Assembly: GCA_017849435.1 (NCBI GenBank)
Contig: JAFIGY010000015.1
Location: 62,001-126,000 of the forward strand
DNA from: Chitinophaga niabensis
Lineage (GTDB): Bacteria; Bacteroidota; Bacteroidia; Chitinophagales; Chitinophagaceae
Reading direction: 5' to 3'
DNA length: 64,000 nucleotides
The position numbers and the translations under genes are program-made. The notes beneath the pieces are model-generated. The model was given only the letters and a program-made list of their open reading frames with translations. It was not told the origin of the DNA and did not search any database. Shown here in pieces: positions 6,235 through 24,377 of this stretch (position 1 is its first letter; every line of letters starts with the position of its first letter).

Positions 6235-6266
6235 TTTGCAATTTAATAACCATTCGATTATCTTTG
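6235..6266 (+). promoter_or_regulatory. Promoter of the SRP RNA
   Basis: TTTG at 6235-6238, 20-base spacer, TATCTTTG at 6259-6266 (exact match). It predicts a 5' end at 6270-6271, which is exactly the first base of the SRP RNA terminal stem. Confidence 0.8.
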
Positions 6267-6270
6267 CACC

Positions 6271-6365
6271 GGCAAGTCTTATACGACCAGCTCCTGCTGA
6301 ACTCCCCCAGGACAGGAATGTAGCAAGGGTAGGCGGTTGTAGCGGTGCGATATAAGTAACTTGCC
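6271..6365 (+). ncRNA. ffs: Signal recognition particle RNA, small (4.5S-like)
   Basis: About 95 bases. The central segment CCCCCAGGACAGGAATGTAG followed by CAAGGGTA is the conserved domain IV: a GGAA tetraloop closing the hairpin and the AGCA internal loop that binds Ffh. The 5' end GGCAAGTCTTATA pairs with TATAAGTAACTTGCC at the 3' end, giving the long rod shape. A T-rich run (ATTTTTTATTTT) follows directly and acts as terminator. It lies between the SRPBCC gene and the aldolase gene, with its own consensus promoter. Confidence 0.88.
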
Positions 6366-6446
6366 ATTTTTTATTTTATACATGGCAGAAAGTTCTCTCC
6401 ACTTTTCCCGAAATTCGTCTGATCCTCACATCAAAAATATTCGACA

Positions 6447-22157: not shown

Positions 22158-22171
22158 TTTTTCAAAAATAT

Positions 22172-22202
22172 TTTGGAATTAATTTTCTCTTTACTACCTT
22201 TG
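22172..22202 (+). promoter_or_regulatory. Promoter of the tRNA-tuf operon
   Basis: TTTG at 22172-22175, 19-base spacer, TACCTTTG at 22195-22202 (both exact). It should start transcription near 22206, about 180 bases before tRNA-Thr. Confidence 0.75.
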
Positions 22203-22387: not shown

Positions 22388-22461
22388 GCCAGCATAGCTC
22401 AGTTGGCCAGAGCTACTGATTTGTAATCAGTGGGTCGGGGGTTCGAATCCCTCTGCTGGCT
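22388..22461 (+). tRNA. tRNA-Thr (anticodon TGT)
   Basis: Acceptor GCCAGCA pairs with TGCTGGC at the 3' end; anticodon loop TTTGTAA in stem ACTGA/TCAGT gives TGT; T-loop TTCGAAT is canonical. CCA is not encoded. First of four tRNAs ahead of tuf. Confidence 0.95.
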
Positions 22462-22501
22462 CGAGAGAGCTTCGGGATGATCCGGGCGATGTTTTTAGTA
22501 G

Positions 22502-22584
22502 GGGCAGATTCCAGAGCGGCCAAATGGGGCGGACTGTAAATCCGCTGTCTTTCGACTTCACAGGTTCGAATCCTGTTCTGCCCA
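22502..22584 (+). tRNA. tRNA-Tyr (anticodon GTA)
   Basis: 83-base class II tRNA: acceptor GGGCAGA/TCTGCCC, anticodon loop CTGTAAA in stem GCGGA/TCCGC, long variable arm (GTCTTTCGACTT) and T-loop TTCGAAT. Confidence 0.95.
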
Positions 22585-22593
22585 CGGAATTAA

Positions 22594-22680
22594 ATGGTTG
22601 CGAATTGTCCGTTACCAATTGCGATTCAACGGAAATGTTCAGTCAGATCGTAATTTGTAATTGACAATTCGTAATTGAAC
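22594..22680 (+). repeat. AT-rich inverted repeat between tRNA-Tyr and tRNA-Gly
   Basis: GCGAATTGTC near the left end is the near-exact reverse complement of GACAATTCGT at the right; further AATTGCGA/CGTAATT copies lie between. It resembles the small palindromic AATTCGTAATT-type elements seen in intergenic DNA of this phylum. Confidence 0.5.
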
Positions 22681-22682
22681 AT

Positions 22683-22755
22683 GCGGGAGTAGCTCAGTTG
22701 GTAGAGCGACAGCCTTCCAAGCTGTAGGTCGCGGGTTCGAACCTCGTCTCCCGCT
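22683..22755 (+). tRNA. tRNA-Gly (anticodon TCC)
   Basis: Acceptor GCGGGAG/CTCCCGC, anticodon loop CTTCCAA in stem ACAGC/GCTGT, T-loop TTCGAAC. CCA not encoded. Confidence 0.95.
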
Positions 22756-22767
22756 CAGTGTACCACT

Positions 22768-22839
<72 letters not shown>

Positions 22840-22871
22840 CAAGGAGTTTCAACAGCTCTGATTTTTAATCG

Positions 22872-22928
22872 TTTCGGATGCAAGGTACCGGATGTCCTGC
22901 GGGAAAGTCGGGGGCCCGGTATCCGAAA
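22872..22928 (+). promoter_or_regulatory. Long bulged hairpin in the tuf leader
   Basis: TTTCGGA plus TACCGG (22872-22878, 22886-22891) pair with CCGGTA plus TCCGAAA (22916-22928): 13 pairs with one 7-base bulge and a G-rich 24-base loop. It stands just before the tRNA-like element. Confidence 0.55.
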
Positions 22929-22943
22929 TTTGAAGTTTAACTA

Positions 22944-23013
22944 AGCTAATAAGCTCGATGGATGAGCGTTCCGTACAAGCGGGAAGGACGGGTTCAATCC
23001 CTGTAATTAGCTC
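22944..23013 (+). other. tRNA-like element upstream of tuf (tRNA remnant or regulatory mimic)
   Basis: The stretch folds as a cloverleaf. Acceptor AGCTAAT (22944-22950) pairs exactly with ATTAGCT (23006-23012); a D-like stem GCTC/GAGC (22953-22956, 22964-22967); an anticodon-like stem TTCC/GGAA (22969-22972, 22982-22985); a T-arm ACGGG-TTCAATC-CCTGT (22988-23004) with a canonical loop. It departs from true tRNAs: A instead of T at position 8, no T33 in the anticodon loop, only two bases in the variable region and one extra base before the 3' acceptor strand. It is either a decayed tRNA or a structured leader element for tuf. Confidence 0.55.
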
Positions 23014-23088
23014 AAGTTTGTTGTGATTTGCTTTTTTAAACAGAACCATACAAAGTAAACTTTACAAACATTTTTAAAAAAAAATACA

Positions 23089-24276
23089 ATGGCAAAAGAA
23101 ACCTTTAAGCGGGATAAACCCCACGTTAACATTGGTACCATCGGTCACGTGGACCACGGTAAAACTACCTTGACTGCTGCCATTACTACAATTCTGGCAA
23201 ACAAGGGCTTGGCTGAGAAGAGAGGATATGATGAAATCGACGCGGCTCCTGAAGAAAAAGAAAGAGGTATTACCATCAATACAGCGCACGTTGAGTATCA
23301 GACAGCAAACCGTCACTACGCTCACGTTGACTGCCCCGGCCACGCTGACTATGTGAAGAACATGATCACTGGTGCTGCTCAGATGGACGGTGCTATCCTG
23401 GTGGTTGCCGCTACTGATGGTCCGATGCCGCAAACGAAAGAGCACATCCTCCTGGCTCGTCAGGTAGGTGTACCCCGTATCGTTGTTTTCATGAACAAAG
23501 TTGACCTGGTAGATGATCCGGAACTGCTGGAACTGGTAGAGATCGAGATCCGCGACCTGCTGTCTTCTTATGGTTTTGACGGCGATAATGTACCCATCAT
23601 CAAGGGTTCTGCAACCGGCGCACTGGCTGGCGACGCAAAATGGGTTTCTGCAATCGACGAACTGATGGATGCTGTTGATACTTACATTCCGATGCCTCCC
23701 CGTCCGGTTGATCAACCGTTCCTGATGTCAGTAGAAGACGTGTTCTCTATCACCGGTCGTGGTACAGTTGCTACCGGTCGTATCGAGCGCGGTCGTATCA
23801 AAGTGGGTGAAAACGTTGAGATCGTAGGTCTGATCCCCGAGTCTCTGAAATCCACCTGTACTGGTGTGGAAATGTTCAAAAAACTGCTGGACGAAGGTGA
23901 AGCAGGTGATAACGCAGGTCTGCTGCTCCGTGGTATTGAAAAGACCCAGATCCGTCGTGGTATGGTAATCTGCCAGCCCGGTTCTATCACTCCGCACACT
24001 GAATTCAAATGCGAAGTATACGTACTGAGCAAAGAAGAAGGTGGTCGTCACACACCGTTCTTCCAGAAATACCGTCCTCAGTTCTACTTCCGTACTACGG
24101 ACGTAACTGGTGAGGTTGAACTGCCTGCAGGTGTTGAAATGGTAATGCCTGGTGATAACATCAGCCTGACCGTTAAACTGATCGCTCCGATCGCGATGGA
24201 AAAAGGTCTGAAATTCGCTATCCGCGAAGGTGGCCGTACCGTAGGTGCTGGTCAGGTGACCGAGATCCTGAAATAA
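23089..24276 (+). CDS. tuf: Elongation factor Tu
   Basis: 395 residues. EF-Tu brings aminoacyl-tRNA to the ribosome. G-domain motifs: [10 protein letters not shown] (19-28, P-loop), the switch I region with [20 protein letters not shown], and NKVD; the end VTEILK is typical. The codon choice is visibly biased as expected for a highly expressed gene. It stands alone after four tRNAs, not in an str operon with rpsL/rpsG/fusA, the usual arrangement in Bacteroidota. A 249-base structured leader separates it from tRNA-Thr. Confidence 0.98.
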
Positions 24277-24298: not shown

Positions 24299-24377
24299 AA
24301 AAAAGCCATTAGCCAGTAACAGGTAATCCTTAGTAGATTATATTTGCTGGTGGAGAAAGTTACGCTAATGGTTTTTT
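24299..24377 (+). terminator. Terminator between tuf and tRNA-Trp
   Basis: AAAAGCCATTAGC pairs with GCTAATGGTTTTTT; an inner CCAGTAA/TTGCTGG helix closes the long loop. A T-run follows at 24372-24377. Confidence 0.75.

Follow-up and report, generated by a model that had tools for sequence, protein, structure and literature searches.

A conserved tRNA-like element in front of tuf in Chitinophaga, possibly a retained leader of the tuf mRNA

Known tRNA-like RNAs and the tuf locus

The yjdF riboswitch is a cloverleaf of tRNA origin that lies in the leader of a bacterial mRNA; the GG of its D-loop and its T-loop are conserved, it does not decode, and its 3′ end is not free. All these features are shared by the element described here, for which the position in a leader is probable. 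The element was found in a stretch of 64,000 nucleotides of Chitinophaga niabensis DNA (referred to as the window; positions are counted from its first letter). There are also clear differences. Between acceptor and D-stem, the element has 2 nt (TA or AA), whereas the yjdF riboswitch has an extended, purine-rich J1/2 region that forms its ligand pocket. Furthermore, the element precedes tuf, occurs in a host group without Shine-Dalgarno pairing, and is kin to tRNA-Thr, whereas the yjdF riboswitch is kin to tRNA-Lys. A search with the yjdF family gave no match in the window at the gathering cut-off, nor in 22700–23200 up to E = 5.

Two other kinds of tRNA-like RNA are relevant, both described in PMC11658184. 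The t-elements of plant mitochondria are, like the present element, derivatives of tRNA genes that lie beside mRNAs, have kept the cloverleaf, and do not decode. They are excised, whereas the present element usually has a blemished acceptor, has a working tRNA just upstream, and resides in a bacterial chromosome. The mascRNA, derived from MALAT1, shares the tRNA-like fold, an odd anticodon region, and the lack of charging; its precursor is a mammalian long noncoding RNA, out of which RNase P and RNase Z release it (PMC11658184), whereas the present element fronts a coding mRNA. A literature search, by title, gave nothing on a tRNA-like element in tuf leaders of Bacteroidetes or in Chitinophaga.

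The gene order at the locus (Table 1) is a familiar one. In Escherichia coli, the thrU-tyrU-glyT-thrT-tufB operon has the identical order of four tRNAs and tuf, and to our knowledge, no extra tRNA-like element lies between thrT and tufB in that species.

Table 1. Features of the tuf locus in the window
Feature	Position	Strand	Sequence or remark
Promoter-like two-box site, Bacteroidota-type	22171..22202	+	TTTTG, 19 nt, TACCTTTG
tRNA-Thr(TGT), tRNA-Tyr(GTA), tRNA-Gly(TCC), tRNA-Thr(GGT)	22388..22840	+	ARAGORN
tRNA-Thr(GGT)	22768–22840	+	paralogue from which the element derives
Spacer hairpin	22872..22928	+	TTTCGGA...TCCGAAA; in the gap between tRNA-Thr(GGT) and the element; some Chitinophaga groups only
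tRNA-like element	22944–23013	+	between tRNA-Thr(GGT) and tuf; fold, conservation, covariation
Element, acceptor	22944–22950 / 23006–23012	+	AGCTAAT / ATTAGCT; 7/7 pairs
Element, positions 8/9			A8 A9
Element, D-arm	22953–22967	+	GCTC-GATGGAT-GAGC; 4-pair stem
Element, anticodon-position hairpin	within 22968–22987	+	
Element, T-arm	22988–23004	+	ACGGG-TTCAATC-CCTGT; 5 pairs; TTCAATC in loop
Element, extra base	A23005	+	between T-stem and acceptor
Element, last base	C23013		directly after the acceptor 3′ strand
Trailer stem	23016–23021 / 23064–23069, within 23016..23069	+	GTTTGT / ACAAAC
A-rich translation start region	23070..23088	+	no visible Shine-Dalgarno sequence
tuf	23089..24276	+	elongation factor Tu, 395 codons + stop; coordinates by eye, start motif by translation

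Fold and conservation of the element

A cloverleaf is predicted for the window element at −20.9 kcal/mol with a z-score of −1.75 (RNAfold), and 11 of 200 shuffled sequences folded equally well; judged by the window sequence alone, the cloverleaf exceeds chance only mildly. The window element is not called as a tRNA by ARAGORN, and the Rfam tRNA model (RF00005) gives it 16.7 bits, which is below the cut-off of 29. Two relatives in another family of the order (family f3, described later) scored 44.1 and 44.3 bits and lie above this cut-off. It is conservation across species that makes the predicted tRNA-like fold secure.

All 39 Chitinophaga genomes whose interval from tRNA-Thr(GGT) to tuf was read base by base have the element. 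Using a covariance model (R1) built on 36 of these genomes, a full-length place besides that of tRNA-Thr was found in 79 of 79 Chitinophaga genomes; the presence of tuf downstream was checked in the 39 genomes that were read. In the window genome, there are 16 model places in all, three at this locus (tRNA-Gly, tRNA-Thr, and the element) and 13 elsewhere, and the places outside the locus are ordinary tRNAs only, as judged with ARAGORN. A pattern scan of named genomes for the trailer stem gave 45 stretches, namely 42 labeled Chitinophaga, one [Flexibacter] sp., one Flavihumibacter-labeled MAG, and a record from Campbellbacteria. This last match lacks both the D-arm and the T-loop and looks like chance. 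The other 44 stretches have the D-arm and the T-loop just upstream of the stem, and tuf begins 16 to 19 nt past the stem in 43 of them, the 44th ending too soon. The 39 genomes and 43 named records yielded 82 elements, among which some species are doubled and 55 elements are distinct. The tuf tree comprised 81 of these elements, as L034 was omitted for having too little tuf.

The elements were extracted by requiring AGCTC...GAGC and GTTCRATYC, a search that every input passed, which means that the constancy described here is not a selection effect. Across the 81 elements on the tuf tree, G18, G19, T54, T55, C56, and A58 have not changed once, and all four pairs of the D-stem are unchanged as well, so that the D-loop/T-loop elbow residues of tRNA are present in 81 of 81. 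The five pairs of the T-stem underwent 22 changes of pair state, and pairing is kept in 404 of their 405 cells; the unpaired cell belongs to L011, in which a deletion has shifted the register. Covariation was counted in a 36-row alignment over the D-stem, the T-stem, and acceptor pairs 3 to 7 (1:72 and 2:71 left out). In this alignment, 95.9% of the cells are paired, versus 36 to 58% when the partner is slid, and 42 cells changed on both sides, versus 11.4 in shuffled alignments, a number reached by none of 500 shuffles. Two weaker measures gave 8 pairs changed on both sides (5.8 when shuffled; 14/500) and 16 further pair types (14.6 when shuffled; 120/500).

Mean pairwise identity among the 39 genomes amounts to 0.907 for the D-arm and 0.832 for the T-arm, versus 0.531 for the anticodon segment (shuffled, 0.437) and 0.458 for the spacer (shuffled, 0.380). 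The corresponding values are 0.776 for third positions of tuf, 0.908 for the A-rich start region, and 0.995 for the distal arm of the trailer stem. Judged by identity and covariation, the Chitinophaga element is under selection as a tRNA fold. The original prediction, made from the window, of a tRNA-like fold before tuf was correct, the cloverleaf being present with its acceptor pairs and T-arm.

The same prediction had described the acceptor as an exact 7-bp helix and the acceptor/T-arm side as the best-kept part of the element. The seven pairs do exist in the window, but A23005 shifts the helix off the T-stem by one base, and across species, it is the D-arm and the T-loop that are best kept, whereas the distal acceptor is the worst-kept tRNA helix. 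In the tRNA register, the acceptor has seven unbroken pairs in one of the 55 distinct elements and a mismatch or bulge in the other 54, with at least six pairs in 42/55. If one bulge in the 3′ strand is allowed, at least six pairs form in 55/55 and seven in 26/55. Pair 1:72 is formed in 18 and pair 2:71 in 9 of the 36 alignment rows (tRNA register). The acceptor of the adjoining tRNA-Thr is perfect in 39/39 genomes, which have only two distinct sequences among them. The nature of the lesion differs by group, being a G2–G71 mismatch, a bulge at 70, a T1 mismatch, or a 4–69 mismatch, and in the group of the window, it is the extra base next to the T-stem, with seven pairs shifted by one. This variety, seen in few groups, is suggestive of an acceptor that need not, or must not, serve as a substrate of tRNA enzymes. 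A CCA follows N73 (counted from the T-stem) in five of the 55 elements (L004, L005, L007, L014, and L037). By eye, an upstream AAACTT could pair with AAGTTT and thus lengthen the acceptor in some groups only; we do not propose this as a conserved feature. Compensatory changes in the acceptor and T-stem, combined with a freely varying anticodon loop, had been put forward as a sign of function. The T-stem and the inner acceptor pairs indeed covary and the anticodon loop is free, but changes in the distal acceptor are uncompensated, which the prediction had named as a sign against function.

The segment between the D-arm and the T-arm forms a predicted hairpin of at least three pairs in 55/55 and at least four pairs in 53/55 distinct elements, with z below 0 in all 55 (mean, −1.92; single values, −0.09 to −4.76). 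The loop at the anticodon position measures 3 to 18 nt among the 55 distinct elements, its sequence is free, and a common anticodon is absent; 54 different anticodon segments occur among 81 elements. As foreseen in the original prediction, the element is, on this evidence, one that does not decode.

Downstream of the element, a stem of at least six pairs that begins no more than 5 nt past the 3′ end is found in 55/55 Chitinophaga trailers, versus 11.5 expected from shuffles. The arms GTTTGTAAA/TTTACAAAC are identical in 49 of the 55 distinct elements, and the others have a shorter form; by this identity, the trailer stems of Chitinophaga are for the most part a single inherited stem with a long loop, which is why there is little covariation behind it. 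The first 26 nt of the trailers fold weakly (mean, −0.43 kcal/mol, versus −1.83 and −0.7 for element-free leaders). Leaders in which tRNA-Thr comes last have stems in 24/59 (20.5 in shuffles) and 10/18 (6.8 in shuffles), that is, no clear excess. In the 39 genomes, the distance from the element to the ATG is 68 to 81 nt, and the upstream spacer is 23 to 204 nt. When folded in context, a pair probability above 0.5 was obtained for the D-stem in 46/55, the T-stem in 32/55, and the trailer stem in 35/55. We also considered the trailer stem as a terminator or attenuator and rejected this, as the T run after the stem is missing (by eye).

Transcription and origin

In the window, the two-box site of Table 1 is the only one of its kind in the 1,200 nt preceding tuf. 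Using the same consensus, 66 of 67 Chitinophaga loci were found to have a two-box site that precedes tRNA-Thr(TGT) by more than 150 nt, a raw count with no chance control, and 53 loci have a closer site as well. In the interval between tRNA-Thr(GGT) and tuf, this one consensus gave no two-box site in any of the 67 loci, and a single-box TAnnTTTG occurs in the spacer of one locus. A promoter of its own for tuf, behind tRNA-Thr, was rejected on the same count. Since two-box sites lie upstream of the cluster and not in this interval, transcription of tuf probably runs through the tRNA cluster, which would make the element part of the tuf mRNA leader.

The core of the Chitinophaga element has an identity of 0.83 with that of Chitinophaga tRNA-Thr (typed representatives), a likeness by which the element is derived from a tandem copy of tRNA-Thr(GGT). 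Gene conversion by tRNA-Thr is unlikely, as its D-loop, AGGGGTA, is found in 39/39 genomes and in 0/55 distinct elements.

No intact element was found in 82 loci of 68 other genera of the family, which were read up to tRNA-Thr or, where tRNA-Thr was not found, over the last 200 nt; sister genera have tuf without the element. Decayed or partial copies of tRNA-Thr are present at the locus in six genera (L113, L136, L138, L105/L198, L128/L197, and L086/L199). Duplication and decay of tRNA-Thr(GGT) at the tuf locus is thus recurrent in other genera, L193 being a further case, and L198 has repeated partial copies with a remodeled T-arm.

Among 20 loci of other families of the order, two looked tRNA-like, both in family f3. 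Of 16 f3 genomes that were followed up, g126 and g127 were unreadable, and 10 of the 14 genomes read have a tRNA-like element before tuf. The element is present in 6/6 genomes of genus g129. One element in g125 (by eye) shows both-sided changes in the T-stem and the D-stem, g23 has two elements with a remodeled T-arm, g3 has a divergent element in one of three genomes, and none was found in the single genomes of g124 and g128. The core of the g129 element resembles that of its own tRNA-Thr (identity, 0.79) more than those of two Chitinophaga elements (0.62 and 0.65), which speaks for a separate origin of the f3 element; the rival account is old descent with losses. Several f3 elements have an unbroken acceptor, which entails that the idea of an element built to escape processing does not hold in f3. 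Nine f3 trailers were tested (L201 of g3 left out), six of which come from close kin. RNAfold predicts a stem-loop of 4 to 6 pairs starting at base 1 or 2 in 9/9, six of these stem-loops having just four or five pairs; at least six pairs were found in 6/9, and three of these are wobble stems elsewhere. A phylum-wide pattern for aberrant elements before tuf matched 2 of 395 genomes, a weak negative given that this pattern detects only elements with a long anticodon segment and misses the window element.

Possible roles of the element

The ribosome, RNase P, RNase Z, and the CCA-adding enzyme all recognize the elbow of tRNA (PMC4810234), and hence two main readings of the element come into view, a leader acting on the ribosome and a mark for processing. 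Our preferred reading, to which we give a probability of roughly 0.38, is that the element is a retained tRNA-like leader of tuf and promotes translation in the manner of the yjdF leader. In this reading, a copy of tRNA-Thr(GGT) would have ceased to decode and been preserved as a structured part of the tuf mRNA. A single transcript would span the four tRNAs and tuf; the tRNAs would be cut out of it, while the L-shaped element would remain at the start of the tuf mRNA, kept in place by its imperfect acceptor together with the stem starting 1 to 4 bases downstream. Placed at a fixed distance from the start codon, the element could show its tRNA elbow to the initiating ribosome, and this contact would raise translation of tuf.

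The analogy draws on PMC9142559. G19/G20 of the yjdF leader, matched by G18/G19 of the element, are needed, the double mutant being near background, and cis-tRNAs gave 2- to 6.3-fold more expression in vitro (PMC9142559). A cis-tRNA that lost ACCA and the acceptor gave 25% less expression, and little expression was lost when the ACCA end was changed to weaken binding of EF-Tu (PMC9142559). The same study reports that E. coli components and an mRNA bearing a Shine-Dalgarno sequence were used and that expression did not track the D-loop and T-loop sequences (PMC9142559), all of which counts against the analogy. Ribosomes of Bacteroidia do not recognize Shine-Dalgarno sequences, and tuf of Flavobacterium johnsoniae is without one, according to PMC9976891, making another aid to initiation plausible. 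A wider version of the retained-leader reading is that, probably twice or more, a tandem copy of tRNA-Thr became a permanent, ligand-free cis-tRNA that has lost decoding and, as a unit with the stem behind it and at a set distance from the start codon of tuf, constitutively enhances translation through its elbow, in bacteria where Shine-Dalgarno pairing plays no part. We regard this as possible, with the odds somewhat against it. If true, a natural ligand-free cis-tRNA before a housekeeping gene would mean that cells use the boost known from grafted tRNAs in vitro. It would also show a path from tRNA gene to leader RNA at a locus where duplication and decay can be seen in other genera, and would have a bearing on the way heavily used genes of Bacteroidota are initiated without Shine-Dalgarno pairing.

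Alternatively, the element could be a punctuation mark similar to t-elements, excised by RNase P and/or RNase Z to leave a tuf mRNA with its 5′ end near a protective stem. The elbow is a feature that both enzymes read (PMC4810234), and t-elements at mRNA ends are cut and CCA-tailed but not charged (PMC11658184). This reading also fits the seeming cotranscription of tuf with the tRNAs and the f3 elements in which an unbroken acceptor is followed by a stem-loop 1 to 2 bases on. However, processing of tRNA-Thr(GGT), 23 to 204 nt upstream, should already free tuf, and sister genera would free tuf via tRNA-Thr too, with leaders that lack a clear excess of stems. Acceptor lesions in 54/55 elements and, in the window's group, the extra base between acceptor and T-stem also argue against excision. 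A CCA following N73 should stop RNase Z, which should therefore be blocked in the five elements that have it. Taken together, the acceptor lesions and the working tRNA-Thr upstream would favor the retained leader a little over a processing mark, which we consider a serious but doubtful candidate.

In the original prediction, the element may be a feedback site at which EF-Tu, or a tRNA-processing enzyme such as RNase P or the CCA-adding enzyme, acts on its own mRNA. As a feedback site, the element would be bound by EF-Tu or another tRNA-binding protein, which would thereby repress or adjust tuf. The tRNA fold does adjoin the EF-Tu gene, and it does so in a similar position in two families. EF-Tu recognizes the acceptor/T-arm helix together with a free, aminoacylated CCA end, whereas the 3′ end of the element, unless excised, lies inside the mRNA, where it is neither free nor chargeable. 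Furthermore, the acceptor carries the lesions described above, the invariant part is the elbow instead of the acceptor, and the end mutation that weakens EF-Tu binding had little effect in the yjdF system (PMC9142559). EF-Tu as the ligand was not borne out, and feedback, which we regard as improbable, is less supported than a retained leader or a processing mark. Equally improbable, in our view, is that all the element and the stem do is protect the 5′ part of a highly abundant mRNA against nucleases. A compact fold followed by a stem would suit such a stabilizer, but any hairpin would suffice, and the invariance of G18, G19, T54–C56, and A58 asks for a partner that knows tRNA.

Two further accounts, both of which we give hardly any credence, can be dismissed briefly: a functionless, decaying tRNA duplicate, offered as the plain alternative in the original prediction and reminiscent of the decaying tRNA-Thr copies at the same place in six other genera, is ruled out for Chitinophaga by retention in 79/79 genomes, by the contrast in identity between the D- and T-arms and the spacer and anticodon segment, and by a covariation score that no shuffle matched, and a working tRNA with an odd anticodon is ruled out by the free sequence and loop size of the anticodon arm, even though ARAGORN labels some copies Phe, Cys, Leu, Tyr, Lys, Ile, or Stop.

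Some minor observations concern other RNAs. A different conserved motif, GUGCGACGCAAC, occurs in the tuf leaders of 13 of the 68 other genera, starting 77 to 132 nt before tuf (L065, L093, L104, L112, L118, L126, L127, L134, L135, L136, L139, L141, and L096); 10 matches are exact, two have one mismatch, and one has two mismatches and is possibly due to chance. Loosely similar sequence follows downstream, often with ACAUAA. The region gave no Rfam match in the eight loci scanned, and the motif is possibly part of another tuf-leader RNA. In the window, an inverted repeat, AAAAAGCCATTAGC ... GCTAATGGTTTTTT, at 24300–24377, after tuf and before tRNA-Trp, looks terminator-like on both strands (by eye). 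An ordinary Bacteroidales small SRP RNA (RF04183) is located at 6263–6370 of the window, with 99.9 bits.
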